This document shows positions 3,106 to 25,634 of a stretch of DNA of 64,000 nt, piece by piece. Source of the stretch: Qipengyuania spongiae (GTDB lineage: Bacteria > Pseudomonadota > Alphaproteobacteria > Sphingomonadales > Sphingomonadaceae); contig NZ_CP092471.1 of assembly GCF_026168555.1 (NCBI RefSeq), positions 2,738,501 through 2,802,500 on the forward strand, written 5' to 3'. Both the position numbers and the translations under genes were made by a program. Numbering within the stretch: the stretch's first letter is position 1; each line of letters opens with the position of its first letter. The notes under the pieces were generated by a model. That model was given only the letters and a program-made list of their open reading frames with translations, had not been told where the DNA came from and made no database searches.

Positions 3106-4280
3106 TTCACTTTCTCCGTGGAGCGAGGAGCGGCGGCGCGGAAGCGGCTGCCGACGCCGGCCACCCGCGACGGGCCGCCTGTACTCGATTTCGCCTGAGC
3201 CGTGCCTGAAGACGTGGCGAAGACCTTCGTCGTGCGATGGATGTTCGCGCCGCCCGCGCTGGTGCCGCTGTCGTTCGCGGCCCCTGCGACGGCAGGAGCA
3301 GACACGTCGATGCGGCGGGCGGCGGCGAGGGTCTGGCTGGCCTGCTGGGCCTGCGCGGCGGGCGAATGCGCCGCCGGAGCGGGTGCGGGAGCGTGGCCAC
3401 GCGAGCCTCCCTCGTCCTTGTCACTCCTGGCGAGGCCGAACACGGTCCAGCCCGACACCATCGTCGCGGCGGTCTTGAGCACCAGGAACATCAGCGCGAC
3501 ATGGACCGCACCGACGAGGAAGAAGCCCATCGCCGCCTGCGGATCGGGCTGGCCGGGATTGGCGACCAGCGCCGACAGCAGCGGCACGGCGAGCTCGAGC
3601 ATCACGCTGCCGCCCAGCACCGCGAAGAGCGGCGCGAGCGCGAGCATGGTCAGCCCCTTGACCCAGCCCGTGAACAGGCCGCGGGTGCCGTTGAACAGCG
3701 CCATGACCACGAAGATCGGCCCCAGCGCCACCAGCACGGCGAGCGCGATCCGCGCGGTCACAAGCAGGCCGACCGTGCCGAGCAGGAACAGCATCGCGCC
3801 CATCCACATCATCCCCTGCGGCGAGAAGGCGGAGATGTCGCTCTGCTGCTGCCCGCTCGCCTCCTGAATGGCGAGGAAGACGACGTCGATCTTCTGCGCG
3901 AAGGTTCTGGTCGCCGAACCGCCGCTGCCGGTAAGAATGCCGGCGAGCCAGTCGGGCGCGCCGACCGCGAGGTTCCAGACGACGCTCTGATAGGCGACCC
4001 AGCTGGTCGCGAAGGTGATGACGAGGCCGACCGTGATCATGCGCGGGGTGAGCGCCCGCACGCCAAGTGTCGCACGGCCCGTCAGCAACTGGATGGCGAA
4101 GAACGCGACGTAGAGCGTCAGCAGGATGGTGAGCACGGTCGCCATCTGCCCGCCCGGCGCGAACAGCCGGCCGAACGCCTGACCCGTCACCTCGCCCGCG
4201 ACGCAATCCACCGCCGTCAGCGCGGCGGAAATACCCGAGCCCACCTGTTCGGCGGCTTGCTGGCACCCTTGCGTGTTCAT
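3102..4280 (-). CDS. virB6: Type IV secretion protein VirB6 (TrbL/VirB6 family)
   Basis: This polytopic inner-membrane channel subunit of the T4SS has 392 aa. Several hydrophobic segments lie between about residues 45 and 280 (for example VLTILLTLYVAFFAIQLL, MLFLLGTVGLLVTARIALAV and FFLVGAVHVALMFLVL). They are followed by a cytoplasmic tail of about 100 residues rich in Ala, Pro and Ser. The start overlaps the virB4 stop (ATGA) and the stop overlaps the virB9 start (ATGA), so translation is probably coupled. In most T4SS operons a virB8 gene would lie between virB6 and virB9. Here the two genes overlap directly. Confidence 0.9.
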   Translation of the reverse strand: MNTQGCQQAAEQVGSGISAALTAVDCVAGEVTGQAFGRLFAPGGQMATVLTILLTLYVAFFAIQLLTGRATLGVRALTPRMITVGLVITFATSWVAYQSVVWNLAVGAPDWLAGILTGSGGSATRTFAQKIDVVFLAIQEASGQQQSDISAFSPQGMMWMGAMLFLLGTVGLLVTARIALAVLVALGPIFVVMALFNGTRGLFTGWVKGLTMLALAPLFAVLGGSVMLELAVPLLSALVANPGQPDPQAAMGFFLVGAVHVALMFLVLKTAATMVSGWTVFGLARSDKDEGGSRGHAPAPAPAAHSPAAQAQQASQTLAAARRIDVSAPAVAGAANDSGTSAGGANIHRTTKVFATSSGTAQAKSSTGGPSRVAGVGSRFRAAAPRSTEKVK

Positions 4281-6721
4281 TCGGCGGCCAACCGGTCGCG
4301 CGGATCGATGCCGAGATCGTTGGCGCCCCCGTCATAAGCACCGCCCGGCCAGGCGCTGCCGGTGAGCGAGGGGAACCAGTCGGCGGGATCGTCGCCCACC
4401 GCCTCGCGCAGCAGGTCGAGCCGCCGGACCGAGCTCTCGCGACCGGAAAGCACGGTCAGCACCTCGGGCGCACCGGACAGGTCGAGCCGGACGACGACGC
4501 TGGCGTCGGGCTGGCGCACCAGGAAGCAGCGGCTGTGCGCCGGCAGCGTGCGGATCAGCGCCAGTTCGTGATCGGTCAGGCCGAAGCCGTCGCAATAATC
4601 CTCCGCCCGCGCGCGGCTGTTGGGCATGAACACCATCGTCGCGGTCTGTTCGACCAGCGCGGTGGAGATGCGGCTGTCGAGCGCGTCGCGCGCGCTCTGC
4701 GTAGCGAAACCAACCAGCGCGTTACGCTTGCGCAGCGTTTTCAGCCAGTCGCGGATGCGCGCGGCGAACACCTCGTCGTCGAGCGCCTTCCAGCCCTCGT
4801 CGATCAGGATCATGGTCGGATCGCCGTCGAGACGCTCCTCGATCCGGTGGAAGAGATACATCATCGTCGGCGTGCGCAGGCGCGGGTTCTCGAGCAGCGA
4901 GGTCATGTCGAAGCCGAGCGCGCGGGCCGACATGTCGAGCCGGTCGTCGGCATTGTCGAACAGCCAGGCGTGCTCGCCCTCATTGATCCACGCGGCCAGC
5001 CGGTCGGCAAGATCGCCGGGCTGCGGCCGGCGCGCGCCCGACAGCAATTCGCGGAAATGACGCAGACGGCGCAGCGATGCGTCGTTGGCGTAAGCCGCGT
5101 CGACCGCACCCGCGATCGTCGCCTCTTCTTCCGGCCCGTTCGCCTTCAGCAACACACCGAGCCAGTCGCGCAGGAACGCCTTGTTGCCCGGCGTATCGGG
5201 CAGGCTCAGCGGGTTGAAGCCGGTCGGCTCACCGCTGCGGATCGCGTCGTAATTGCCGCCGATTCCGCGCACGAACAGCTCCGCGCCGCGATCCTTGTCG
5301 AACAGGATGGTGCGAGGGCGGAACTTCTGCGCCTGCGCGGCGAGGAAGTTCATCACCACGGTCTTGCCCGAACCGCTCGGCCCGATGACCGAGAAATTGC
5401 CGAGATCGCCGTTGTGGAAGTTGAAGAAGAACGGCGTCGAGCTGGTGGTCTGGAGCAGCGTCACCGCCTCGCCCCAATGGTTGTTCTCCGCCTGGCCGAG
5501 CGCGAAGCCGTGCAGCGAACCGAAACTCGCCATATTGGCGCTGGAGATCAGCGCGCGGCGGACGAGGTAGCCTTCGTTGCCTGGAAACTGCCCCCAGAAG
5601 GCGGGTTCGAGATTGGTGTCCTCGCGCACGGCGATGGCGCCGGTATCGGCGATCGCGGCGGCGCAGGCGGCGGTCGCGTCGTCGAGCCTGGCGAGATCGC
5701 GCTCGCGGACCAGCACCGTCAGGTGATGATCGCCGAACCCTACCGCGCCGTTGCCGAGCTCGTCACGAGCGGCGAGCATGTCGGCGCGTTCGGCGGCGGC
5801 TTCCTCGTCGGCGCTGCGCAGGCGGCGGATGGCGAGGTCCATGCGCTCGCGCGCGGTCTGGCGTTCGGTCGGGGCGTAGCTCTCGCTCACCACCATCTCG
5901 AAGGGCAGGCGCAGCAGCGCGTCGAGCAGGCCGGGGCTGGTCGCCTCGGGATAGTCCTTGAGCCCGAGCATCGAGGAGAAATCGGGCGAGCCCGATCCCC
6001 GCTGCTCGATCGCGTCGATCCCGAAGCTGACCCGGCGATAGGGCAGCATGTGCCCGATATCGACCTCGTCCGCGGGCTTTCGCACCGGGCGCATCTCGCC
6101 ATTGTAGAGCGCGGAGAGCAGTTCGAGGATCTCGTTGTTCACATTGCCCTGTGGGCCCACATAGTCGCCCAGAACCTGCGCCCCGTAGGCCGAGAGCGAG
6201 GCCACCAGACCCTGCGCCGCCGCGCGGAGCGAGCGCAAATCCTTGGGATCGACCTCCGCCTCCTGCCCGCGTCGGCTCAGCTTCTTCTGCGCGCGCTCGA
6301 CGAGGCCCGCCTTGCCGCGCGCCGGGCGGCGGATCAGGGTGACGAACTGATCGTTGATGAACAGCGATCCCGAACCCAGCCGCTCCTTCCACCGCGCGTC
6401 GATGTGGCGGCTGAGCGGATCGGGAAACTGCGCGTCGAGATCGACCTCGACCCGGCGGCGGATCACGTGGTGGTAGAGCACGAACCGCGCATCGAGGGTC
6501 GAGCGCAGCATCACCTCGCGCGTGGCGGCATGGGCGTTCAGCGCCTCGCTGTCCTCGGTCTCGAACAGCAGGCCGGGCACCTGCAGCGCGGTCATCACGC
6601 TGCCGTCGCGCAGCAGCAATGTGCTTTCATCGACCAACCGGGCATAGGGCAGGCGGTCGCCGGCGCGCGCTTCCTTCGCGCCCCAGGCCGCCGCGCCCTT
6701 CCATTTCGCGCTACGCGGCAT
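4277..6721 (-). CDS. virB4: Type IV secretion ATPase VirB4
   Basis: This is the large AAA+ ATPase that powers T4SS assembly and pilus dynamics, 814 aa, a normal length. The N-terminal CagE/TrbE/VirB domain includes TALQVPGLLFETED. Walker A GPSGSGKTVVM lies near residue 446 and Walker B MILIDEGWKALDDE near residue 635, followed by the family segment LVGFATQSARDAL. The start overlaps the end of virB3 by 11 bases and the stop overlaps virB6. With VirB11 it makes two energy-providing ATPases. No VirD4 coupling ATPase is present in the window. Confidence 0.95.
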   Translation of the reverse strand: MPRSAKWKGAAAWGAKEARAGDRLPYARLVDESTLLLRDGSVMTALQVPGLLFETEDSEALNAHAATREVMLRSTLDARFVLYHHVIRRRVEVDLDAQFPDPLSRHIDARWKERLGSGSLFINDQFVTLIRRPARGKAGLVERAQKKLSRRGQEAEVDPKDLRSLRAAAQGLVASLSAYGAQVLGDYVGPQGNVNNEILELLSALYNGEMRPVRKPADEVDIGHMLPYRRVSFGIDAIEQRGSGSPDFSSMLGLKDYPEATSPGLLDALLRLPFEMVVSESYAPTERQTARERMDLAIRRLRSADEEAAAERADMLAARDELGNGAVGFGDHHLTVLVRERDLARLDDATAACAAAIADTGAIAVREDTNLEPAFWGQFPGNEGYLVRRALISSANMASFGSLHGFALGQAENNHWGEAVTLLQTTSSTPFFFNFHNGDLGNFSVIGPSGSGKTVVMNFLAAQAQKFRPRTILFDKDRGAELFVRGIGGNYDAIRSGEPTGFNPLSLPDTPGNKAFLRDWLGVLLKANGPEEEATIAGAVDAAYANDASLRRLRHFRELLSGARRPQPGDLADRLAAWINEGEHAWLFDNADDRLDMSARALGFDMTSLLENPRLRTPTMMYLFHRIEERLDGDPTMILIDEGWKALDDEVFAARIRDWLKTLRKRNALVGFATQSARDALDSRISTALVEQTATMVFMPNSRARAEDYCDGFGLTDHELALIRTLPAHSRCFLVRQPDASVVVRLDLSGAPEVLTVLSGRESSVRRLDLLREAVGDDPADWFPSLTGSAWPGGAYDGGANDLGIDPRDRLAAE

Positions 6722-6995
6722 AGCTGTTGCACCCCCAGCGATTGTAGTTCCGCACGCGCGGGCACTTGGAGACCTTGGTGATCCACAAGTCGAAGATGCG
6801 CGGTTCGCGCAGGCAGGCGAAATAGCCCACCCCGTGGATCGCCAGCGCGGTGGGCAGCGCCAGCCAGCTGCCGGTGATCAGGAACAGCTCGGTCGTCACC
6901 ATCCCGTTGATGATGAAGTAGTTGTACGTGACGCCCGCGAACATCTGCGGGCGGGTCAGCGCACGGTGGACGGGATGGCGGGCGAGCTGCGTCAT
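6711..6995 (-). CDS. virB3: Type IV secretion protein VirB3
   Basis: This 94-aa inner-membrane protein is required for T4SS pilus assembly, usually in association with VirB4. The N-terminus LARHPVHRALTRPQMFAGV is the conserved VirB3 signature, followed by two adjoining hydrophobic stretches (YNYFIINGMVTTELFLITG and WLALPTALAIHGVGYFA). It begins one base after the virB2 stop codon and overlaps virB4 by 11 bases. The small size, position and motif together make the assignment secure. Confidence 0.9.
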   Translation of the reverse strand: MTQLARHPVHRALTRPQMFAGVTYNYFIINGMVTTELFLITGSWLALPTALAIHGVGYFACLREPRIFDLWITKVSKCPRVRNYNRWGCNSYAA

Positions 6996-6996
6996 G

Positions 6997-7311
6997 TCAC
7001 ACTCCCGCGGTCGCGCCCTGGATGCCGGCGACGATCGAGGCAGCGCCGAACAGGATGAAGACGCCGATGATCACGGTCGCGCCGAAACGCCAGTTGAGAC
7101 GTCCGGTCAGCATCATGAAGCCGACCGCGGCCACCGCCATCACCGCGACGGCGGTGGCGACATTGCCGAGCAGCGTGCCCTGCAGCCAGCCGAGCGCGGC
7201 GACGATCGGGCCGGAACCGGCGGGGTCGGCGGCCTGCGCGAAGGCGGCGGTGGGCGATGCAAGAAGCACCAGAGCAGCGGCGCGGATAAACGAACGCATA
7301 TTCAACTTCAC
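6997..7311 (-). CDS. virB2: Type IV secretion major pilin VirB2 (TrbC/VirB2 family)
   Basis: This is a T4SS pilin precursor of 104 aa. An N-terminal signal peptide (MRSFIRAAALVLLASPTAAFA, if translation starts at the second Met) is followed by two hydrophobic helices, about GTLLGNVATAVAVMAVAAVG and FGATVIIGVFILFGAASIV, separated by a short polar loop (MMLTGRLNWR). This is the classic VirB2 layout. The start at 7311 overlaps the transglycosylase stop (ATGA). A start four codons downstream is also possible. Confidence 0.88.
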   Translation of the reverse strand: MKLNMRSFIRAAALVLLASPTAAFAQAADPAGSGPIVAALGWLQGTLLGNVATAVAVMAVAAVGFMMLTGRLNWRFGATVIIGVFILFGAASIVAGIQGATAGV

Positions 7312-7943
7312 TCCCGGGAATGATCGGACAGGCGGCCCATGATGGCCGCGACATAAAGCTGGGTTTCGCGGATGCGGGGCACGCCGCCGGATCGCTCGAC
7401 CCGGCCCGGACCTGCGTTGTAGGCGGCGAGCGCCTTCTCGACGTCGCCATCGAACCGGTCGAGCTGGGCGCGCAGGTAACGCGCCCCACCTTCGAGATTG
7501 GCGAAGGGATCGCGGGCATCGACGCCGAGGTCGCGCGCCGTTCCCGGCATCAGCTGGGCAAGCCCGCGCGCACCCACCGGCGAGACGGCATCGGCGCGCC
7601 AGCGGCTCTCCTGCCAGACCACCGCCTCAAGCAGCGAGGGGCTGACATCGAAGCGGGCGGCAAGCTCGGCGATCTTGGCCTTGTAGGCTTGCGGGACGGC
7701 GGCCGCGTGGAGATGGGGCTGGGCGACCATCCGGTCGGGAACCATCAGGTCCGCCGGAATTTCTTCGGTGGCAAGTTCCGCACCAATGGCCCCGGTCGGC
7801 GCGTCGACGGCAGGCACGGTCGCGCCCCCGGCGACCCAATGTGCCTCGCCCTGGTCGATCTGAAGAACATCGGCCTGTGCCGGCAGGGCCATCAGGCCGA
7901 TGCCAGCGAGCAGAATGGTGCGCAGGCCCGCGCTTAGAATCAT
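7308..7943 (-). CDS. Lytic transglycosylase, VirB1-like (SLT domain)
   Basis: This is a periplasmic murein hydrolase likely to open peptidoglycan for the secretion apparatus. The start at 7943 (MILSAGLRTILLAGIG) has a GGAGGG ribosome-binding site and gives 211 aa with a signal peptide ending near PAQA. A start 14 codons upstream is also open but has no better site. The SLT domain covers about residues 95-205, with catalytic Glu112 in VVWQESRW, GLAQLMP at 127-133 and AYNAGP at 174-179. It is the first gene of the operon, where virB1 commonly sits. Confidence 0.9.
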   Translation of the reverse strand: MILSAGLRTILLAGIGLMALPAQADVLQIDQGEAHWVAGGATVPAVDAPTGAIGAELATEEIPADLMVPDRMVAQPHLHAAAVPQAYKAKIAELAARFDVSPSLLEAVVWQESRWRADAVSPVGARGLAQLMPGTARDLGVDARDPFANLEGGARYLRAQLDRFDGDVEKALAAYNAGPGRVERSGGVPRIRETQLYVAAIMGRLSDHSRE

Positions 7944-8043
7944 CTGGCCCTCCAATCCGGCCCCATTGCCTCCCATACATGACATCGGAGTGACAAGGAA
8001 CTGAATGAGGGTCTACCGTTAGGCGGAAAAGGTTTCGTTAACC

Positions 8044-8058
8044 CTAACGTCGACTTAA
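8044..8058 (-). promoter_or_regulatory. Possible CtrA-type site upstream of the type IV secretion operon
   Basis: Read on the minus strand, this is TTAA, seven bases, then TTAG, one mismatch from the CtrA full site TTAA-N7-TTAA. It lies about 100 bases upstream of the first operon gene, and a further TTAAC follows a few bases on. CtrA controls many envelope and appendage genes in alphaproteobacteria. This is a motif match only. Confidence 0.25.
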
Positions 8059-8086
8059 AAAGAACGACTTGGCGCTGGTTTCCGGC

Positions 8087-8449
8087 TCAGCGGCTGGCGA
8101 CCAGAGTCTGGTCGGCGAACTCTCCGCGGTTCAGCATGGCGAGGCTGCGCGCGGCAATCCGCCGGGCCTTGATCCACTGCCCTTCGGTCGTTTCCAGGAA
8201 CAGCGTACCATCGGCCTGCATGGCAGCCTCGAAATAGCGCCGGGCCTGCTCGTTGTCTCCCTTGCGCGCGTGAGCGACGCCGAGATTGATGAGCCGCGCC
8301 GGATCGGTTTCTTCCAGGCGGTCATTCGTCATGATGGTGGCGATGGCGGCGGCGTCGCGTCCGGCGACGAGTTCCTCGGTCGCGACATCCATTGCGGGCG
8401 CCGCGGACTGTGCTGCCAGGGCGACGAGGGCGGATACCAGGATGCTCAT
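8087..8449 (-). CDS. Exported tetratricopeptide-like small protein, unknown function
   Basis: The predicted secreted protein has 120 aa. The N-terminus (MSILVSALVALAAQSAAPA) looks like a signal peptide, and a GGGAG-like site precedes the ATG. Residues about 50-85 (ARLINLGVAHARKGDNEQARRYFEAAM) form one clear TPR hairpin. The family is not one I can name. It is divergent from the lipoprotein/receptor genes, and a Pho-box-like repeat lies about 75 bases upstream, so it may share their regulation. The function is unknown. Confidence 0.75.
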   Translation of the reverse strand: MSILVSALVALAAQSAAPAMDVATEELVAGRDAAAIATIMTNDRLEETDPARLINLGVAHARKGDNEQARRYFEAAMQADGTLFLETTEGQWIKARRIAARSLAMLNRGEFADQTLVASR

Positions 8450-8521
8450 ATTTCCAATCTCCCAACTTTATCGATCAGGATAATGCGCGCCCTCCCGCTT
8501 CGCCGCAACAATTCTGTAACA

Positions 8522-8539
8522 TTGTCATTTTTCCGTCAT
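8522..8539 (+). promoter_or_regulatory. Pho-box-like direct repeat 1 (TTGTCAT-N4-CCGTCAT)
   Basis: Two 7-base half-sites, TTGTCAT and CCGTCAT, are separated by TTTT, giving an 11-base period. This is the architecture of PhoB operators (CTGTCAT-N4-CTGTCAT). The site lies between the divergent TPR gene and the lipoprotein gene. A PhoB-like regulator is encoded 5 kb away in the same cluster. Confidence 0.5.
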
Positions 8540-8592
8540 CCTCCCTCCTGCCGCCGGCACCGAGGTGAGGCGAGGCGTATCCTTTGTGGAAA

Positions 8593-8610
8593 CTGTAAGA
8601 GAAGTGTCAC
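8593..8610 (+). promoter_or_regulatory. Pho-box-like direct repeat 2 (CTGTAAG-N4-GTGTCAC)
   Basis: CTGTAAG and GTGTCAC are separated by AGAA, again with an 11-base period. A further single CTGTCAT lies at 8624-8630. The site is about 100 bases upstream of the lipoprotein start and is placed where a PhoB-type activator would contact RNA polymerase. Confidence 0.45.
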
Positions 8611-8705
8611 CGGCGAACACGAACTGTCATCTGGCGGGCCTAGCGGGCGATTCGCGAACCTGATCTCGCGTCCATTCCACCGGTTTTTTGAGGGGACCGC
8701 CGCTC

Positions 8706-10268
8706 GTGAAAAATGTCCATCGCTCGCTCGTCATCGGATGCTCCGCACTGGCCCTCGCCAGCTGCGGCGGCGACGAAATCGTCTCGCCCGGCACCTCGGG
8801 CGACATCGTCATCAACAACCCCGCCCCGGCACCGACCCCGGCCCCCACGCCCGCGCCGACCTCGTCGCTGGTCACGCCGGCGGCCGGCTGCCCGACCATC
8901 AACTCGACCGGTGGCTTGCGAGATGCGGGCACCATCACTGGCCCGACCGGCACCTACCGCGTCTGCGAACTGCCCGCGCTCGTCGATGCCGACGACACGC
9001 TGCCCTATATTGCCGGTCTGCTCTATTCTCTGCCGGGCCGGGTCGACATCGGCACCGATCGCGGCTTCGCCAGCACCGGCTCGAATGTCGAGCTGACCAT
9101 CCAGCCAGGCGTCACCGTCTTCGGCGGCACGGGCCGGTCCTTCCTGGTCGCCAATCGCGGCAACCAGCTGATCGCCAACGGCACCGCGACGCGCCCGATC
9201 GTCTTCACCAGTCGCGACAACGTGCTCGGCCTCACCAACGATTCCTCGATCGGCCAGTGGGGCGGCGTCGTCCTTCTCGGCCGTGCGCCGGTCGCCGACT
9301 GCCGCGTCGGCGGCGTCAACACCGCGGCCGCGCCCAACACCAACGCCAGCTGCGAACAGGAACTCGAGGGGGCGAACACCACGACCCTGTTCGGCGGCAG
9401 CAACTCCGCCGACAGCTCCGGCTCGCTGCGCTACGTCCAGATCCGCTATTCGGGCTTCAGCCTCGCGCCGGGCCGCGAGCTCCAGTCGCTGACCACCGGC
9501 GGCACCGGCACCGGCACGACGATCGACCACTTCCAGAGCTTCAACAGCTCGGATGACGGGATGGAGTTCTTCGGCGGCTCGGTGAACATGAAATACGTCG
9601 TGGCCGTGGGTGCAGATGACGACTCGATCGACGTCGATTCGGGTGCGCGGGCCAACATGCAGTATGTCGTGGCCGTCCAGCGCAGCGAAGGCGGCGACAA
9701 CATCATCGAGCTCGATTCGCCGAACGAGGCGGCGACCAACAGCGCCGCGATCCCGCAGACGATCCTCAACGTCGCCAACTTCACCTTCATCCAGCGCGCT
9801 TCGACGGCGACCCAGTCGATCCGGGCGCGCGGCGGCGCGAAGCTGAACCTCGTCAACGGCGTGATCAGCGCCGATGGCGATCCGTGCCTGCGTATCGACG
9901 ATCCGGAAACCTTCGCGGCCGATCCGGACTCCTTCTCGGTCGTCGGCGCGTGCAGTGCCTCGCGTCCGAACCGGGGCAACACCAACCCTTCCGACCAGCA
10001 GGTGCAGGACGATTTCATCGCGGATTCGTCGAACAACAATTCCGCCTTCACGCTCAGCCTGACGGGCGTGATCGTGAACGGCGCGAACGAGAACGCGGTC
10101 ACGGCCACCAACCCGACGACCATCTCGTCCTTCTTCGATGCGACGACCTATGTGGGGGCGGTGCGCAACGCGCAGGACACCTGGTATCGCGACTGGACCT
10201 GCAACTCGTCGATCCTCGATCTCGGCAGCGCCAACGGCATCTGCACCCGCATCCCGGTCTATTCCTGA
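8706..10268 (+). CDS. Beta-helix-like surface or periplasmic lipoprotein paired with a TonB-dependent receptor
   Basis: This is a predicted lipoprotein of 520 aa. The GTG at 8706 is chosen because it yields VKNVHRSLVIGCSALALASC, a signal peptide with lipobox LAS-C, and has AGGGG ten bases upstream. An in-frame TTG at 8688 is less likely. After the Cys comes a Pro/Ala/Thr linker. The rest is a repetitive Gly/Asn/Asp-rich body with turns such as SLRYVQIRYSGF, FNSSDDGMEFFGGS and GADDDSIDVDSGA, suggesting a right-handed parallel beta-helix. I do not recognise a catalytic motif. The receptor gene follows after a strong hairpin, so the two probably handle the same substrate. The substrate is unknown. 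The Pho-box-like repeats upstream hint at phosphate or a phosphorylated compound. Confidence 0.7.
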   Translation: MKNVHRSLVIGCSALALASCGGDEIVSPGTSGDIVINNPAPAPTPAPTPAPTSSLVTPAAGCPTINSTGGLRDAGTITGPTGTYRVCELPALVDADDTLPYIAGLLYSLPGRVDIGTDRGFASTGSNVELTIQPGVTVFGGTGRSFLVANRGNQLIANGTATRPIVFTSRDNVLGLTNDSSIGQWGGVVLLGRAPVADCRVGGVNTAAAPNTNASCEQELEGANTTTLFGGSNSADSSGSLRYVQIRYSGFSLAPGRELQSLTTGGTGTGTTIDHFQSFNSSDDGMEFFGGSVNMKYVVAVGADDDSIDVDSGARANMQYVVAVQRSEGGDNIIELDSPNEAATNSAAIPQTILNVANFTFIQRASTATQSIRARGGAKLNLVNGVISADGDPCLRIDDPETFAADPDSFSVVGACSASRPNRGNTNPSDQQVQDDFIADSSNNNSAFTLSLTGVIVNGANENAVTATNPTTISSFFDATTYVGAVRNAQDTWYRDWTCNSSILDLGSANGICTRIPVYS

Positions 10269-10277
10269 CGGACCTTG

Positions 10278-10318
10278 TCGCCGGGCGGGCCGCGATCGGC
10301 GCCCGCCCGGCGATCTTT
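10278..10318 (+). terminator. Strong hairpin between lipoprotein and receptor genes
   Basis: A perfect 13-bp stem (TCGCCGGGCGGGC with its complement at 10301-10313) has a loop of about ten bases and is followed by TCTTT. It could end the lipoprotein transcript or reduce read-through into the receptor gene, setting unequal amounts of the two proteins. Confidence 0.7.
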
Positions 10319-10362
10319 AGAACACAGTTCGCATTTTCGATATTCTTACGAGGGGCTTCACC

Positions 10363-13131
10363 ATGTCGAACGGCATGCGCGTTGCGGGAATTCTGCTACT
10401 GGGTACCGCGCTCACTTCACCTTCCCTGGCGTTCGCGCAGGAAATCCCGCCCGGCAACGACCCGAGCACCGAGCAGGCCGAAGAGGAAGCGCTGGGCCAG
10501 ATCGACCCGGCCGAGGACCTCGACGCCGGTCCCGAAATCTCGGTCCCCGGTGGCGACGTCATCATCGTCACCGGCCGCCGCACGCGAGATCCGCAGCGCA
10601 GTTCCGGCCAGGTGCTCAGCATCCTCTCGGCCGAGGACATCGCCCGCACTGGCGAAGGCGACATCGCCGGCGCCCTCACCCGCGTCACCGGGCTCTCGGT
10701 GGTCGGCAACGGCCGGGTCTTCGTGCGCGGCCTGGGCGATCGGTATTCGCTGGCCCTGCTGAACGGCCTTCCCCTGCCCAGCCCCGAACCGCTTAGCCGC
10801 GTGGTCCCGCTCGACATCTTCCCGACCAATGTCATCGCCTCCTCGCTGGTGCAGAAGACCTATTCCGCGAACTTTCCCGGCGAATTCGGCGGCGGCGTCA
10901 TTAACCTGACCACCCGCGCCGTGCCCGAGGAAAGCTTTCTGACGCTGAGCGCCGGCATCGGCCTCGACACCATCACATCGTTCAACGACGGCCTCACCTA
11001 TTTCGGATCGGACCTCGATCCGTTCGGCTTCGACAACGGCAATCGCGACATCCCCTCCAACCTCCAGGCCTTTCTCGACAGCGGCCAGCGGATCGAGGAC
11101 ACGCCGATCGCCACGCAGGAAGGCATCGCCGGGCAGATTTTCCCGCTCAATCTGGTGACATTGCAGAAGGACAACGGCCTTCCCCCCAATTTCTCCGGCA
11201 ACATCGCGGGCGGCACCTCGTTCGAGATCGGCGACGGCACCTATCTCGGCGTTCTGGCGACCGCGGGCATTTCCAATTCCTGGCGCAACCGCAACGTCCG
11301 CTCGCAGCAGGCGACGCAGGATCTCGCGACCCTGACCGAAGATTTCACCAACTTCATCACCGACAACAACGTGCTGGTGAACGGGTTGCTCAGCTTCGGC
11401 GTGGAAGCCGACGACTTTACCCTGCGGTGGACCAATCTCTACATCCGCGACACGTTGAAGACGGCGCGCCTCGCCACCGGAACCCGCTTTCTGCTCGGTG
11501 CCGACGGCTTCGATTTCATCAACCAGAACACTGCCTGGTTCGAACGCCAGCTGATCGACACGCAGCTGGTCGGCGAATTCGAGTTCGACCGCCTGTCGGT
11601 CGATTTGCGTGGCGGCTTCGCGCAGACCGACCGCGAGGCGCCGTTCGACGCGACGTTCTCGTACACGCGGACCAATGTGCCCGACGATACGCCGGACGTG
11701 ATCGATTCCATTGGCGAGCAGTTCGCGGTCTATCTCAATCGCGCATCGGACACCGGGCTCAGCCGCGTCTCTTTCGACGATCTGCGCGAAAAGCTGCGCT
11801 ATGCGGGGGCAGATTTCACCTACGAATTCTCCGACCGCTTCAACGCGACCATCGGAGGCGCCTACACCGACACCGACCGGCGTTCGTCGCGGCGAGAATT
11901 CCTGCCCTTCGCGCAGGTCTCGCCGGTCACTGTGACCGATGCGGACGGCAATCCCTTCACCTTCACACCCGATCCGCAGATCATCCCCATCATCGGTCTG
12001 CGGCGGCCGGGCGACATCATCAACGGCGCCTCGCTCGCCCTGCTCGACATCACGCTGGACGAGGCGAACCCCTTCCCGGTGTTCGACGCCGCGCTCGAAA
12101 TCTTTGGCGCTTACGGCAAGTTAACCTACGTCCCGGTCGATCCGCTGACGATCGAGGCGGGCGTGCGCTACGAGACGGCGGACCAGTCGGTCCAGCTCGA
12201 CCAGTCGGTGTTCGACACGCCGATCCTCGGCGCGACGCCGACCGCGCTCGACAACGACTATTTCCTGCCCGGCGTGACGGTGACCTATCTCGCCAGCGAC
12301 GACCTGCAATTCCGCCTCGCCGCCTCGCGCACACTCGCGCGTCCGCAATTCCGCGAGCTGGTCGAGCAGAACTATTTCGATCCCGAGAGCAACCGCACCT
12401 TCCGCGGCAACCCGTTCCTGATCGACAGCACGCTGTTCAATGCCGAGGCACGCGCGGAATACTATCTCGGTGGGCCGGACAAGATCAGCCTCGCGGCGTT
12501 CTACAAGAAGATCAACGACCCGATCGAGGCGTTCGTCATCAGCAGCGCCGGCGGCGGATTCCTGACCAGCTACGCCAACGCGCCGGAAGCGAAGCTGTTC
12601 GGGGCCGAGCTGGAAGGGCAATATTCCTTCGACCTGATGGATCTGGGGGATTTCTTCCTCACCCGCCAGTTCGTGGTCCGCGCGAACTACACCTACACCA
12701 ATTCGGAAATCGGCGTGCAGGCGGGCGACACCACCTTCGTGCCCCCCTCCGGCGCTGCGGACGCGACGCTCTATTTCGACGATGGCGACCGCCTTACCGG
12801 CCAGTCGGATCATGTCGCCAACCTCCAGCTCGGCCTGGAAGACACCGAGCGCACCTCGCAGCTCACGCTCTTGCTGAACTACGCCAGCGACCGGGTCACC
12901 AGCCGCGGCTTCCAGCAGCCCGACGTGATCGAGGACCCGGGCCTCACCGTCGACCTCGTGGGGCGTCAGGCCTTCACGGTGATGGGCAAGGAGATCGAGC
13001 TGGAGCTGGAAGCGCGCAACATCTTCGGGCGCGACAATTTCGAGTTTCAGGAGTTCAACGGCAACCGGATCGAGATCAACAGCTTCGAGGTCGGTCGCCG
13101 GTTCTCGGCCTCGCTGTCCGTCGATTTCTGA
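10363..13131 (+). CDS. TonB-dependent outer-membrane receptor
   Basis: This 922-aa receptor takes up an unidentified ligand across the outer membrane using TonB energy. It has a signal peptide (ending SLAFAQ) and an acidic linker, then a TonB-box-like DVIIVTGRR near residue 65. The plug domain contains FVRGLGDRYSLALLNGLP and FGGGVINLTTRA. A long beta-barrel closes with RRFSASLSVDF, and a terminal Phe is normal for outer-membrane insertion. GAGGGG precedes the ATG. It lies downstream of the beta-helix lipoprotein and upstream of a convergent PhoB-like regulator, forming a three-gene unit. The ligand cannot be read from sequence. Confidence 0.92.
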   Translation: MSNGMRVAGILLLGTALTSPSLAFAQEIPPGNDPSTEQAEEEALGQIDPAEDLDAGPEISVPGGDVIIVTGRRTRDPQRSSGQVLSILSAEDIARTGEGDIAGALTRVTGLSVVGNGRVFVRGLGDRYSLALLNGLPLPSPEPLSRVVPLDIFPTNVIASSLVQKTYSANFPGEFGGGVINLTTRAVPEESFLTLSAGIGLDTITSFNDGLTYFGSDLDPFGFDNGNRDIPSNLQAFLDSGQRIEDTPIATQEGIAGQIFPLNLVTLQKDNGLPPNFSGNIAGGTSFEIGDGTYLGVLATAGISNSWRNRNVRSQQATQDLATLTEDFTNFITDNNVLVNGLLSFGVEADDFTLRWTNLYIRDTLKTARLATGTRFLLGADGFDFINQNTAWFERQLIDTQLVGEFEFDRLSVDLRGGFAQTDREAPFDATFSYTRTNVPDDTPDVIDSIGEQFAVYLNRASDTGLSRVSFDDLREKLRYAGADFTYEFSDRFNATIGGAYTDTDRRSSRREFLPFAQVSPVTVTDADGNPFTFTPDPQIIPIIGLRRPGDIINGASLALLDITLDEANPFPVFDAALEIFGAYGKLTYVPVDPLTIEAGVRYETADQSVQLDQSVFDTPILGATPTALDNDYFLPGVTVTYLASDDLQFRLAASRTLARPQFRELVEQNYFDPESNRTFRGNPFLIDSTLFNAEARAEYYLGGPDKISLAAFYKKINDPIEAFVISSAGGGFLTSYANAPEAKLFGAELEGQYSFDLMDLGDFFLTRQFVVRANYTYTNSEIGVQAGDTTFVPPSGAADATLYFDDGDRLTGQSDHVANLQLGLEDTERTSQLTLLLNYASDRVTSRGFQQPDVIEDPGLTVDLVGRQAFTVMGKEIELELEARNIFGRDNFEFQEFNGNRIEINSFEVGRRFSASLSVDF

Positions 13132-13152
13132 TGCCCATCGAGGCGTAATCGC

Positions 13153-13185
13153 AGGGGCTGCGCCGACCGCGCGGCCCCTTTTTTC
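13153..13185 (+). terminator. Rho-independent terminator after the TonB-dependent receptor
   Basis: AGGGGC and GCCCCT arms enclose a GC-rich loop and are followed directly by a run of six T. It sits between the convergent receptor and regulator genes. Confidence 0.75.
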
Positions 13186-13200
13186 CGCCCGGCGACCAGG

Positions 13201-13875
13201 CTAGTCGCTGTCCCAGACATAGCCCATGGAGCGGACGGTACGCAGCTTGTGCCCCGCGCCCGCCGCCTTCAGCGCGCGGCGCAGCCGGCCGATCCAGACA
13301 TCCACCGTGCGCTCGTCGATCGGCGGGTCGAGCTTGCCCAGCCCGGCGATAAGCGCCCCGCGCGACAGCACGCGGTCGGGGTTCTCGACGAGGAAGCGCA
13401 GCAGGCGGAACTCGTTGGGCTGAAGCGCCAGCGGCTTGGCCTTCCAGCGCGCCTGCAACGCGCCGAGATCGATCGCGAGATCGCCTTCCACGATCATCTG
13501 CGTGACGCGGCGCTGGCCCTCGGGCGCATGGACGGCGAGCACGCGGTCGAGCACCTTGGTCCGGTCGAGCGGCGCGGCAACATAGTCGTCGGCCCCGGCG
13601 CGCAGGGCACGGCGCCTCTCGTCCTCCGCCTCCCCCTCCAGCACCATGGTGACATGCGCCTCGCCCAGCCGCCGGTCGGCGCGCAGGCGGCGGCACATCT
13701 CGAGGCCGGACAGCTCGTGCATCACCCAGTCGACGAAGATCCAGACCGGACCTTCGGCGAGCCGCGCGGGGCCATCGGCGGACAGACGCTCGAACACGTA
13801 GCGCCGGCCGTCATGCTCGAAATCCTCGAACGTCTCGACATCCTCGCTGGTCAGAAAAATCGTGACGGTTTCCAC
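13201..13875 (-). CDS. PhoB/OmpR-type winged-helix regulator with degenerate receiver domain
   Basis: This is a DNA-binding response-regulator homologue. GTG at 13875 gives 224 aa beginning VETVTIFLTSEDVETF. A longer in-frame start at 13950 would run through its own putative operator. In the receiver part the phospho-acceptor Asp is kept (IFVDWVM). Against PhoB, however, the first acidic-pocket residue is Ser, the switch Thr is replaced (VTMVLEGEAED) and the conserved Lys is Ala (ADDYVAAPL). The C-terminal winged helix (NEFRLLRFLVENPDRVLSR and DERTVDVWIGRLRRAL) closely resembles the PhoB recognition helix. No histidine kinase is adjacent. It may work without phosphorylation and control the neighbouring receptor and lipoprotein through 11-bp-period repeats. 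Confidence 0.85.
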   Translation of the reverse strand: METVTIFLTSEDVETFEDFEHDGRRYVFERLSADGPARLAEGPVWIFVDWVMHELSGLEMCRRLRADRRLGEAHVTMVLEGEAEDERRRALRAGADDYVAAPLDRTKVLDRVLAVHAPEGQRRVTQMIVEGDLAIDLGALQARWKAKPLALQPNEFRLLRFLVENPDRVLSRGALIAGLGKLDPPIDERTVDVWIGRLRRALKAAGAGHKLRTVRSMGYVWDSD

Positions 13876-13913
13876 ATCGCCCCCCGGTTTCCCAAAGCGG
13901 AATGGCGCGGTTG

Positions 13914-13931
13914 CGTGACGTCCATGTGACG
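13914..13931 (-). promoter_or_regulatory. Pho-box-like direct repeat before the regulator (CGTCACA-N4-CGTCACG)
   Basis: On the minus strand CGTCACA and CGTCACG are separated by TGGA, giving an 11-base period, about 40 bases upstream of the regulator start. A further TGTCACA-type word lies at 13945-13951 on the plus strand. It suggests autoregulation. Confidence 0.45.
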
Positions 13932-13963
13932 CCGCGCGAGCGAATGTCACAATCGGCTGGAAA

Positions 13964-22034: not shown

Positions 22035-25000
22035 TTAGAAGCGGATCCGGGCGCCCACGCGGATGGCGTAAAGCGACTGGCGCGTCTGCAACTGCACCTG
22101 CGGGTCGCGGACGGTCGAGTACTGGTACTGCGCACAGGAATTGCCCGCCGCAGCGACACAGCTGACGCGAACGACCGCGGCGTTGTACGGGAATTCGACT
22201 TGGCGGAGCGTACCCCAATCGCTGTCGATCAGGTTCAGCACGTTCTCGATATCCGTGTAGAGTTCCAGCTTCGGACGCGAACCGAGCACGTTCGGAAGCG
22301 GGATTTCCTGACCGAAGTGCAGGTCGATCTTGAAGAAATCGGGCGAAGTCTGCGTGTTCTTCGGAATGATCGAACCACGGAACTTCTCGATGCCGAGATC
22401 GGTCACCAGCTGGTTGAAGGCCGCTTCGCTCGCCGCGCTGTCGAAGGTGACCAACGGATCGCCACCGGCGTTCGGAACGTAAAGCAGCTGGTTGCCGAGG
22501 TTGCCCACGGTGCCGAACACGGCGCCACGGTTGCCCGAATTGTCGAGCATCGTGACCGAATACGGACGACCCGAGCGGTATTCGCCGAACAGGCCGAGAT
22601 TGGTGTTGGCATCTCCGAAGAACGCGCGGTTGAAGTTCACGCCGAACTTCCAGGTATCGCGGAATTCGTAGATCGAACGACCGTAAGCCGCCACGTTCGG
22701 ATCGACGAAGGCGTTGTTGCCGTAGTTCGACGAGGAGGTCGAGCTGGTCAGAGCCGAGCGATCCTTGACGTCCGAGCGCGTGTAGCTGCCGAAGATATCG
22801 AGACCGAAATCGAAGTCCTTGGCGAAGCGGAACGTGCCGAAATAGCCGCGGCCGTCGCTGGTGTTGCCCAGCAGCAGGTCGCGGTTGTTGGCAGCCGTCG
22901 GCGTAATCGTGGAATAACGCGGACGACCGTCCGGCAGCGTGCCGGTCTGGACCGCACGAAGGTCGGTCCAGATATAACCGTCGATCGTGTTGTCGTAGAG
23001 GAACTGCACGCCGAACAGCCAGCCATCGCCGAGGAAGCCGAGATCGGCCTCGTAATCGGCCGAAAGCGAGGCCTTAAGCTTGTTGGCGATGTCGAGGTTC
23101 GGATCGATCGCGTCGGTCGGTGCATTCTGCAGACTGGCGACATTGGTCGTCAGGTAGTTGATGACCGACTGCGGGATGTCGCCGGTGACATTGTCGAGCG
23201 CGTCACAAGTACCCTGCGCGGCGCAGTTGGCCCGGGTGATCGTGACGTCGTTCGTCAGCTGGCCAGTGTTCGAGTAGACGTTCGACAGGAACACGTCCGG
23301 CGTGCCGCCGCCGAAGATGCCGACGCCGCCACGAACGATCAGGCGATCGGTCGCTTCCCAGTTGAACGCCGCGCGCGGCTGGAACAGGCCGCGACCGTTG
23401 AAGGTCGAACGGTTGCTGAAGCCGTTGCGGGCGAGGAAGTTGGCGTTGAGCGGCGGCAAATCGGTGTTGCCGTAGAGATCGTAACGGGCACCGGCGATGA
23501 GCTGCAGCGTGTCGGTCAGCTGCGACTCCACCTGGAAGCCGAAGTTGAACCCGTCCGTGCTGAACCGCGCCGCAGCGTCGTTGGGATCGTTCGAAGGAAC
23601 GGCGTTGGCATAGCGCAGCTGACTGGCCCGACGCGCCTGGAAGTCGGCGAGCGAGTCGAAGTAGAAGTCGCCCAGCGAACGCTGCAGGAACAGGTTGAAG
23701 ACGTCGGTCTTCGTGTAGCCGCCGATGAACTTGAGCTGCGTGGCGCCAAGGTCGGCACGCGCGGTCAAGTCGACCGAGAAGTTCTCCGTGTTGAGCTCGT
23801 TGGACTGACGGCTGACGTCCGGTCCGAAGAACAGGCGGGTGCCGCCGCAGGTGACCGCGTTGCCGCCCGAAGTGGCTTCGGTACACACGCCGAACTGCGG
23901 GAAATCGCGCCCGCCGAACGGGGTCTGGTTGCGGTTGTAGTCGCGATAGCTCGCCCGCAGCGTGGTCGAGAACACGTTCGACCAGGTCGAGTTCAGCTCG
24001 AACTGCCCCGAATTGATCTCCTCGTTCAGCTCGTAGCCGTTCGACTGGTAGCCGAGCGCGGGCGAGGTGCCGGTGAGGAAAGTGTTCTGCTGGAACTGGT
24101 TGGTGCCGACATTGCGGATGTAGGTCAGCACCGCACGGTGGTTGTCCGACAGATTGGCGTCCAGCTTGGCGACGAACTTCTCGTCGTCCTCGTTCGCATT
24201 GGCGATGAGGCCGAGCGTGTCGTAGCCATAGACGTTCTGCGCGGTCGCGCTGACCTGGTCGATCACGCCCTGCGTCAGGCCGGGAACCTGGTTGGCGAAT
24301 TGCGGGCCGAAGCCATTGTCGAACGGCGTGCCTTCCTTGGTCCGCTCGTAGGCGGCCATGAAGAACAGACGGTCCTGAAGGATCGGGCCGGACACCCAGC
24401 CGCCATACTGGTCGGACTTGAAGTCGAGATTGACGGTCGAGGTCTTGGCGGTGTCGCCGGTCAGACCGTCGCCGGTGTAGGAATAGAAGCCGCCACCGTG
24501 GAACATGTTGCCGCCGGACTTCAGCACGACGTTGATCGCGCCGCCCTGCAGATCGCCTTCCGAAACGTCGAACGGCGCCACCTTGACGGTGAACTGCTCG
24601 ATCGCGTCGAAGGGCACGGGGCCGCGATTGGTCGGCAGGCCGCCATTGTTGAGGCCGAAATCGTCCGACAACTGGATGCCGTCGACGCTGAAGCGGTTGA
24701 GGCGGCCGTTATTGCCCGCAATCTCGATCGTGCGGCTGTTGGTAAGGTCGATCGTCACCAGCGGATCGCGACGGGCGAGGTCGCGGATGTCGCGGTTGAT
24801 CGAGGCGGTGTTCTCGATGTCCTCTTCGGTCAGAACCGTGGTCGGTCCGTCCGCGGCGGAAAGGCGCGTCTGGATCGCGGCGCCGGTGACGACGATGACG
24901 TTGGCTTCACGAAGCGTGATCGGCAGGCGCAGCGGCTGGCCGGCCTGGAGGAAGATTTCCGAAACCGTCGAGGTCTCGTAACCCGGCGCATCGACCGTCA

Positions 25001-25247
25001 CTTCGAACGGGCCGCCGATGCGAAGCGCGTTGGCGGCGAAGTTGCCCGTCGCGTCGGTGGTGGTCGTCGACGTGGTGCCGGAGGGCTGGTGAACCACGGT
25101 CACGACAGCGCCGGCGACCGGCGTGGTGCCGTCTTCTACGGTGCCGCGGATGGACGAGGATGTCTCCTGCGCGTGGAGCGGAGCAGCCATGGGGGCGACA
25201 AGAGCGACGCTTGCAGCACCGGCTGCCAGCAGAAACTTGATGTTCAT
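22035..25247 (-). CDS. Oar-like TonB-dependent receptor with carboxypeptidase-regulatory-like domain
   Basis: This is a large outer-membrane receptor of 1070 aa. The start at 25247 (MNIKFLLAAGAASVALVAP) has TGAGG upstream and gives a signal peptide ending LHAQ. Residues about 33-115 form a CarboxypepD_reg-like fold (SIRGTVEDGTTPVAGAVVTV, ATGNFAANALRIGGPFEV). A plug domain with NRFSVDGIQLSDDFGLNNGG and a barrel ending GARIRF follow. This layout matches the Oar/OmpA-related TonB receptors implicated in protein, peptide or oligosaccharide uptake. It stands alone between a strong terminator and a 387-base divergent intergenic region. The ligand is unknown. Confidence 0.9.
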   Translation of the reverse strand: MNIKFLLAAGAASVALVAPMAAPLHAQETSSSIRGTVEDGTTPVAGAVVTVVHQPSGTTSTTTTDATGNFAANALRIGGPFEVTVDAPGYETSTVSEIFLQAGQPLRLPITLREANVIVVTGAAIQTRLSAADGPTTVLTEEDIENTASINRDIRDLARRDPLVTIDLTNSRTIEIAGNNGRLNRFSVDGIQLSDDFGLNNGGLPTNRGPVPFDAIEQFTVKVAPFDVSEGDLQGGAINVVLKSGGNMFHGGGFYSYTGDGLTGDTAKTSTVNLDFKSDQYGGWVSGPILQDRLFFMAAYERTKEGTPFDNGFGPQFANQVPGLTQGVIDQVSATAQNVYGYDTLGLIANANEDDEKFVAKLDANLSDNHRAVLTYIRNVGTNQFQQNTFLTGTSPALGYQSNGYELNEEINSGQFELNSTWSNVFSTTLRASYRDYNRNQTPFGGRDFPQFGVCTEATSGGNAVTCGGTRLFFGPDVSRQSNELNTENFSVDLTARADLGATQLKFIGGYTKTDVFNLFLQRSLGDFYFDSLADFQARRASQLRYANAVPSNDPNDAAARFSTDGFNFGFQVESQLTDTLQLIAGARYDLYGNTDLPPLNANFLARNGFSNRSTFNGRGLFQPRAAFNWEATDRLIVRGGVGIFGGGTPDVFLSNVYSNTGQLTNDVTITRANCAAQGTCDALDNVTGDIPQSVINYLTTNVASLQNAPTDAIDPNLDIANKLKASLSADYEADLGFLGDGWLFGVQFLYDNTIDGYIWTDLRAVQTGTLPDGRPRYSTITPTAANNRDLLLGNTSDGRGYFGTFRFAKDFDFGLDIFGSYTRSDVKDRSALTSSTSSSNYGNNAFVDPNVAAYGRSIYEFRDTWKFGVNFNRAFFGDANTNLGLFGEYRSGRPYSVTMLDNSGNRGAVFGTVGNLGNQLLYVPNAGGDPLVTFDSAASEAAFNQLVTDLGIEKFRGSIIPKNTQTSPDFFKIDLHFGQEIPLPNVLGSRPKLELYTDIENVLNLIDSDWGTLRQVEFPYNAAVVRVSCVAAAGNSCAQYQYSTVRDPQVQLQTRQSLYAIRVGARIRF

Positions 25248-25634
25248 TTTGAAAACCTCAGGATCGCGAGATGTTTCCGGCGGTCTCGGCTTCGCGAATC
25301 GCACGCGACACCCGACCGGCCCGGGCCGCCCTCTACTCGGCTCGCCCCTAGGGTCCAGCCGGTTTTTGGTGACATTTCGGTTACAGAAAAGGGCGGTCGG
25401 CGACCGCTCACGATCCCGTTCTTCCAAAAATCGCGGAAATGGAACGATTTGACGCGCGACGATTTATGACGTGACGGTGACCTGGGTTCGCGGATGGGCT
25501 GCGCGCGGTTCGCGAATTCCGATCAATGCTGCACTGCGGCAACACTAACTTTGGTTAGGTTATGGTCCGCGGCCTTTCCGCTCCCCCCTTCGCAGTCGTT
25601 GCCCGACTTCCCCGATCCCGTTAGATCGCAGGCC
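25248..25634. other. 387-base divergent intergenic region, no gene seen
   Basis: This region separates the minus-strand receptor from plus-strand mtgA and should hold both promoters. No credible small gene or RNA gene was seen. The only notable word is the short inverted repeat CTAAC-TTTG-GTTAG at about 25544-25557, some 80 bases upstream of mtgA. Confidence 0.5.

Follow-up and report, generated by a model that had tools for sequence, protein, structure and literature searches.

In a stretch of 64,000 nucleotides from the 2.93-Mb genome of Qipengyuania spongiae (contig NZ_CP092471.1, positions 2,738,501 to 2,802,500; in the following, the window), a lipoprotein gene and a TonB-dependent receptor gene converge on the gene of a PhoB-type regulator, which raises the question of what this regulator does at the Pho-box-like repeats around it if it can no longer be phosphorylated in the usual way. 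An earlier note, made from the letters of the window, had proposed a self-contained nutrient-uptake unit, perhaps linked to phosphate, whose regulator binds PhoB-like boxes without normal phosphorylation or, as a PhoB paralogue, hijacks part of the Pho regulon. After our analysis, the phosphate link and the idea of a phosphorylation-blind PhoB paralogue stood, whereas the self-contained unit had to be given up. The best overall explanation, to which we give an even chance, would be that the regulator, termed ARR here, is such a paralogue, sits at the Pho boxes of its own and of the divergent promoters and modulates the action of phosphorylated PhoB (PhoB~P). The three genes of the locus are the following.

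8706..10268, plus strand: surface lipoprotein, all-beta (beta-helix-like), 520 aa, lipobox ...LASC
10363..13131, plus strand: TonB-dependent receptor, cc0171-like partner, with Pfam Plug and TonB_dep_Rec barrel
13201..13875, minus strand: PhoB-derived pseudo-receiver response regulator (ARR), start GTG 13875 set by homology

The regulator and its altered receiver

ARR was searched for in 199 genomes of the family and located in about 62 of them, and 60 more loci with ARR-type matches were fetched. Comparison of gene order, which the earlier note had proposed, covered 61 regulator-bearing loci, the window's included, and revealed lipoprotein, receptor and convergent regulator in 57 of them. Left out of the 57 were L061, L097, L098, and L102, where the stretch retrieved contained the regulator without either of the other two genes; G182, with a regulator match of 101 residues, was not among the fetched loci. 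The regulator stop lies less than 500 bp from the receptor stop in 48 of the 57 syntenic loci and more than 1 kb away in six; the long distance in L054, one of these six, is an artefact caused by a receptor match in two pieces. A unit confined to one genome is ruled out by the family-wide matches and the shared gene order. The unit is not self-contained, however, since the lipoprotein was found in 144 of the 199 genomes, against about 62 for the regulator. About 86 lipoprotein-bearing genomes have no syntenic ARR; 40 of these were fetched, and the receptor adjoins the lipoprotein in all 40 (in L165 it is only partial, as the contig end is reached), directly after it as in the 57 loci with ARR. 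Absence of ARR from a genome means here that the best match in that genome was only at the level of canonical PhoB; one of the 40, L154, comes from a genome (G181) with a weak ARR-like match at another place.

The origin of ARR as a PhoB paralogue was borne out, as no other protein of its genome matches it better than the canonical PhoB (36% identity, E 6e-36), with the next match at E 3e-13. While this canonical PhoB passes the cut-off of the PhoB equivalog family TIGR02154 (341 bits), ARR reaches 137.5 bits against a cut-off of 296.2, with TIGR02154 still its nearest NCBIfam family. Based on open reading frames (ORFs) and their order, the canonical gene lies in a cluster phoR-porin-pstS-C-A-B-phoU-phoB; the profile TIGR00975 found no PstS in this genome, but a pstS-like ORF was nevertheless read in L103.

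Alignment of the 57 syntenic ARRs showed that the phospho-accepting Asp is retained and its surroundings are not, as the earlier note had read from one sequence. D53 is kept in 56 of 57, while T83 is replaced by Leu in all and K105 is lost in all (Gly 51, Ala 3, Glu 2, Gln 1). The acidic pair is acidic at its first position in 28 (Asp 25, Glu 3) and at its second in 16 (Glu 12, Asp 4), in a region where the alignment is uncertain. Furthermore, the T+1 position is Glu or Asp in 55, and the Phe at K+2 is exchanged for Leu, Val, Ile or Ala in all 57. The complete phosphorylation site of a PhoB (acidic pair, Asp, Thr, Lys) is therefore not present in ARR.

The DNA-binding half gave the opposite picture. 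In PhoB, base contacts are made by R201, T194, V197, and R219 (PMC3973317), and in the ARRs R193, R201, and R203 are kept in 57, V197 in 55, T194 in 54, and R219 in 40 (His in 15), so that the Pho-box contacts of E. coli PhoB and the PhoB-like recognition residues of the earlier note are largely preserved. Near-fixed differences are H198 to Trp (56 of 57) and R200 to Gly or Lys (51 of 57). The DNA-binding domain has PhoB as its best sequence match in the PDB (3T72, 1QQI, 1GXP), and in a predicted ARR model (pLDDT, the predicted local distance difference test, 88.6) this half overlays PhoB on DNA (1GXP) with a target template-modelling (TM) score of 0.88. A tree of the regulators had long outgroup branches, and ARR needed two changes rather than forming a single clean clade. 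Altogether, comparison of residues, profiles and models suggests that ARR is almost certainly a pseudo-receiver PhoB paralogue.

The loop by which PhoB contacts sigma70 is also changed. W184 is Gly in 54 of 57 ARRs, G185 is Lys in 54 and both exchanges occur in 53, while the 11 canonical PhoBs compared all have W184 and G185. The PhoB mutants W184R, G185R, V190M, and D192G are reported to have lost activation (PMC3973317), and W184 and G185 to be required for association with sigma70 (PMC1885438); V190 and D192 did not separate ARR from the canonical PhoBs compared. These loop changes favour modulation or competition over activation in the manner of PhoB.

Half-sites and the composite element

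The three repeats of two 7-mers with a 4-base spacer named in the earlier note were read at the same positions and proved to be part of a larger set of sites.

13914-13931, minus strand: Pho-box-like pair before the ARR gene, CGTCACATGGACGTCACG (CGTCACA-TGGA-CGTCACG), of the form GTMAY-N6-GTMAY
8522-8539, plus strand: first repeat, TTGTCAT-TTTT-CCGTCAT, half of the 40-bp element below
8593-8610, plus strand: second repeat, CTGTAAG-AGAA-GTGTCAC, letters read in the window
8625..8643, plus strand: core lipoprotein promoter, TGTCAT-N8-CCTAG, of the pattern TGTCAY-N8-C[CG]TA
8503..8542, plus strand: element of four half-sites, two 11-bp pairs offset by 8 bp, containing the first repeat
8087..8449, minus strand: divergent gene of a short TPR protein (TPR_2 26.3 bits, just under the cut-off of 27)
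8480..8508, minus strand: putative TPR promoter, TTGCGG-N17-CATTAT, with a -35-like hexamer that overlaps the outermost half-site

Since the regulator starts at GTG 13875 and not at 13950, the repeat at 13914-13931 lies upstream of its gene. The sites are conserved in relatives: GTMAY-N6-GTMAY was found within 150 bp before the regulator in 55 of 57 loci (all but L075 and L089), on the other strand in none, and at a rate of 0.0014 in shuffled sequence, and the looser G[TC][CA]A[CT]-N6-G[TC][CA]A[CT] in 53 of 57 loci within 300 bp before the lipoprotein. Upstream of the receptor, neither pattern occurred within 150 bp (0/57), a shorter range than that used for the lipoprotein. The mean number of half-sites per lipoprotein promoter is 6.33 on the strand of the lipoprotein, compared with 1.09 on the opposite strand and 1.16 after shuffling; chance repeats are ruled out by these strand and shuffle controls. 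Motif search by expectation maximisation (EM) in the 57 promoters of each gene gave TGCAAc-AAAAA-TGTaAc-AtTGT before the lipoprotein (log-likelihood gain 834 vs 82 shuffled) and GTCAC-N6-GTCACAT before the regulator (663 vs 74), with one shuffled run per promoter set. These direct repeats of 11 bp with cores like TGTCA resemble the PHO box, in which each of two units of 11 nt has a conserved core of 7 nt (CTGTCAT in E. coli; PMC4415409). The porin promoter adjoining the canonical phoB in the same genome reads TGTCAC-N5-CGAAAA-N5-CGTCAT, so that sites of canonical PhoB and ARR look alike.

The half-site aligned with a conserved -10-like CCTAG is TGTCAT at 8625-8630, just downstream of the second repeat. 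TGTCAY-N8-C[CG]TA was detected in 44 of 57 lipoprotein promoters with ARR and nine of 40 without (shuffled rates 0.0005 and 0.0008); relaxing the pattern raised these counts to 49 and 20. In three loci of the same genus (L066, L069, L071), TGCAAC-N5-GGTCAC lies 20 bp upstream of the core half-site, as judged by eye.

Spacing differs with the presence of ARR. Half-site pairs at 11 bp occur in 88% of lipoprotein promoters with ARR vs 50% of the 40 without, pairs at 8 bp in 63% vs 7%, at 9 bp in 32% vs 7% and at 22 bp in 9% vs 53%, with shuffled values near zero throughout. An 8-bp offset occurs in the composite 11-8-11 element, which differs from a PHO box in that its two pairs are offset by 8 and not 11 bp, within a longer half-site array. 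The element mostly lies about 150–300 bp before the lipoprotein start and scored at least 15, a cut-off of our own choice, in 51 of 57 loci with ARR (leave-one-out), two of 40 without and none of 57 shuffled promoters. Among the named loci, the same cut-off was reached in 22 of 24 called with ARR vs five of 53 called without; in four of these five (L196, L207, L220, L244), the stretches end near the unit. The exact pattern was present in 28 of 30 genomes with ARR (not in G099 and G011), once each and upstream of the lipoprotein as far as coordinates were compared by eye, and in none of 30 ARR-less genomes out of the 40 fetched, which gave five one-mismatch matches. In 32 further genomes, mostly with ARR, a search with up to two mismatches found a single exact copy in each of 21 genomes, besides numerous looser matches that are probably due to chance.

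The element appears to belong to the TPR gene as well. This gene lies upstream of genes for a lytic transglycosylase (SLT match) and VirB2/VirB4-like proteins (VirB4-type match), and relatives show a similar arrangement TTGCAG-N17-CATTCT at its promoter, again by eye. In G006 and G153, where the element is absent at the lipoprotein, an exact copy stands at the relocated TPR gene, and G095 has a one-mismatch copy there. A purely lipoprotein operator was thus rejected, since the element stays with the relocated TPR, lytic transglycosylase and VirB2 genes in these three genomes. Where the TPR gene adjoins, the element occurs in 49 of 49 loci with ARR vs two of 10 without (Fisher p 2e-8, which ignores descent), and in 65 of 66 vs three of 16 when named loci are included. 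With descent considered by independent pairs on a lipoprotein tree (159 rows, 12 pairs), element and ARR changed the same way in 7.9 pairs, the opposite way in 0.2 and without difference in 3.8 (median p 0.008, range 0.004–0.125); this test used 62 of 80 named loci after near-duplicates had been dropped and filters for downstream length and the receptor applied, one or other of which L196, L207, L220, and L244 did not pass. Smaller sets gave 4.7, 0.0, and 2.3 (97 rows, seven pairs) and, for TPR-adjacent loci, 5.2, 0.0, and 2.8 (82 rows, eight pairs).

At the place of the element, ARR-less neighbours often have other arrays, for instance a run of five half-sites spaced by exactly 11 bp in L172 and a spacing of 9 in L152, L153, and L157. 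The array therefore is older or wider than ARR, and it is the 8-bp geometry, not the array as such, that tracks ARR. As an observation on the neighbourhood, the TPR, lytic transglycosylase, VirB2 and VirB4-like genes (4277-8449, minus strand) lie beside the lipoprotein in many relatives.

The lipoprotein-receptor pair and phosphate

Clusters of pst and pho genes surround or adjoin the pair in several taxa. In Blastomonas marina (L192), phoB-phoU-pstB-A-C-S-porin is followed by lipoprotein, receptor and regulator and then by phoR, so that the unit stands inside a pho cluster. In Novosphingobium L232 and L252, canonical phoB-phoU-pstB-A-C lies downstream of the receptor; pst genes precede the lipoprotein in L201, L206, L218, and L248, and phoB does so in L186 and L245. 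A loose screen for pho neighbours counted 17 of 180 loci, with L059, L153, and L205 included only through a generic kinase or ATPase match, and the majority of loci, the window's among them, have no adjoining pho genes. In the Blastomonas-type loci L099, L100, and L192, the unit sits between phoR and the porin-pst genes and the regulator is more divergent (43–46%); L100 and L192 apparently represent a single genome.

A second line of evidence comes from Caulobacter, where ElpS (CC0170) is described as a surface lipoprotein made on phosphate starvation, with the gene order elpS-cc0171-gsp, and cc0171 as constitutive, expressed in rich and poor media (data not shown there; PMC2996285). The PhoB regulon of Caulobacter is reported to include the type II secretion system (T2SS) and various TonB receptors (PMC11208175). 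In one Phenylobacterium locus (L243), the homologous pair precedes Pfam-tested GspC-D-E-F genes as in Caulobacter, and its lipoprotein is 43% identical to that of the window. The pair thus seems to be elpS/cc0171-like, as judged by gene order in a relative from the Caulobacteraceae; it differs in the window by the regulator after it and by the fact that no T2SS genes were identified adjoining it. Based on both lines, the phosphate link suggested in the earlier note is very probable.

For the lipoprotein, no Pfam or NCBIfam family was matched. Its AlphaFold2 model (pLDDT 86.2) found beta-helical proteins as top Foldseek matches in the PDB, with weak scores (best E 0.007), and a sequence search of the PDB gave no relative of lipoprotein or receptor. 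Residues of about 280-313 (9545-9646, plus strand) form a strongly conserved acidic stretch in the beta-helix, NSSDDG-E-FFGG ... GADDDS-D-D-G, possibly a metal- or ligand-binding site.

Proposed role of the regulator and alternatives

In the proposed scheme, canonical PhoB~P would activate the lipoprotein promoter through the half-site 8 bp before CCTAG, and the ARR gene through its Pho-box pair. ARR would bind the Pho-box array without phosphorylation, chiefly at the 11-8-11 element that lies between the lipoprotein and TPR genes, and while bound to the DNA would compete with PhoB~P or modulate it in an incoherent feed-forward loop, possibly also repressing the TPR operon. That ARR binds the array is, on the evidence of its contact residues and the conserved sites, probable. 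Because it is without the sigma-contact residues and the half-sites run in reverse over the -35-like hexamer of the TPR gene, we lean towards a modulator or antagonist rather than an activator, a tentative preference that falls a little short of an even chance; a hijacking of part of the Pho regulon, as the earlier note put it, would be possible. Since the lipoprotein outnumbers the regulator and regulator-less promoters also carry 11-bp pairs, canonical PhoB is the likelier ancestral controller of the lipoprotein promoters. Rather doubtful is the most specific version, in which a duplicated PhoB has evolved into a dedicated anti-activator blind to phosphorylation, itself controlled by PhoB, with a G185R-like loop and a co-evolved 11-8-11 operator, and brakes or times the scavenging module together with the TPR/VirB operon.

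Several observations weigh against the proposed scheme. The element exceeds the cut-off, itself our choice, in the ARR-less loci L151 and L161 and in the named ARR-less locus L195, of which only about 8 kb on each side were seen; six of 57 loci with ARR lack it at the lipoprotein; and G095 (L279) has its copy with no match at ARR level, possibly by recent loss of ARR. Both smaller trees gave a median p of 0.06. E111, which we take to serve dimer contacts in PhoB, is present in 11 of 11 canonical PhoBs vs one of 57 ARRs, which speaks against an activator as well. None of five aligned paralogues from the same genome has Trp at position 184, and OmpR-family activators need not use W184-G185. H198 to Trp and R200 to Gly or Lys could alter specificity, and PhoB alone may be using the 11-bp pairs of the ARR-less promoters.

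ARR could instead activate the lipoprotein-receptor pair from the Pho-box array independently of phosphorylation, as is reported for ChxR, HP1043 and GlnR. The half-sites are oriented toward the lipoprotein, R115, D100, and D101, which presumably act in receiver dimers, are kept in 53, 55, and 54 of 57 ARRs, and the exchange of the Phe at K+2 falls into a class tied to active-like CheY (PMC12632262). The loss of W184 and G185, at which W184R and G185R abolish activation by E. coli PhoB, and the distance of the element from the lipoprotein start, together with its overlap with the TPR -35-like hexamer, argue against this. We regard an activator as unlikely, but keep it in consideration because other OmpR-family regulators activate through other contacts. 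A simpler explanation, that canonical PhoB alone binds all boxes and ARR regulates something else or is non-functional, would suit the 40 of 40 lipoprotein loci that manage without a nearby ARR, half of whose promoters have an 11-bp pair, and the two Novosphingobium loci with phoB downstream of the receptor. It is made improbable by a residue pattern fixed across many genera, by the box before the ARR gene and the kept place of this gene, and by an 11-8-11 element that tracks ARR. Finally, ARR might be phosphorylated on its kept Asp by PhoR or acetyl phosphate like an ordinary PhoB; phoR adjoins the regulator in the Blastomonas-type loci, while no sensor kinase was found among the typed neighbours of the window (4.3–17.7 kb, where not every ORF was typed), in line with the earlier note. 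Since Thr and Lys are lost in all 57, T+1 is acidic in 55 and the acidic pair is largely gone, and an Asp can persist for dimer formation, as reported for GlnR and RamR (PMC12632262), phosphorylation of this kind is very improbable.

Compared with the atypical regulators ChxR, HP1043 and GlnR (PMC12632262), the proposed phosphorylation-blind modulator shares the missing active-site residues and the lack of an identified partner kinase beside it in the window, and its retained Asp recalls GlnR and RamR, which need an Asp that acts without phosphorylation. It differs in being PhoB-derived with a canonical PhoB in the same genome and in its co-inheritance with a composite element of which there is one exact copy per genome. 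How bacterial pseudo-receivers are activated or inactivated is said to remain a mystery (PMC12632262). The ARR family offers a clean case, as its canonical parent is at hand in the same genome and its likely binding site is marked by conservation, with the exact target once per genome, so that competition, heterodimers and phosphorylation independence are directly testable. If true, the scheme would explain how a surface module for phosphate acquisition can be controlled separately from the remaining Pho regulon. A literature search found no paper describing ARR, with most subscription journals outside its coverage.

Apart from that, the window holds two further sites. An exact match to TGTNACNNNNNTGTCAY (TGTCACTCCGATGTCAT) lies at 7979-7995 on the minus strand, where the ORF of the lytic transglycosylase begins. 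At 25369-25385, also on the minus strand, we identified the exact Pho-box-like pair TGTAACCGAAATGTCAC with CCCTAG downstream. The pair lies some 120 bp upstream of the probable start, near 25247, of another TonB-receptor-like gene (22035-25427, minus strand), which is a second candidate for a Pho-regulated receptor in the window.

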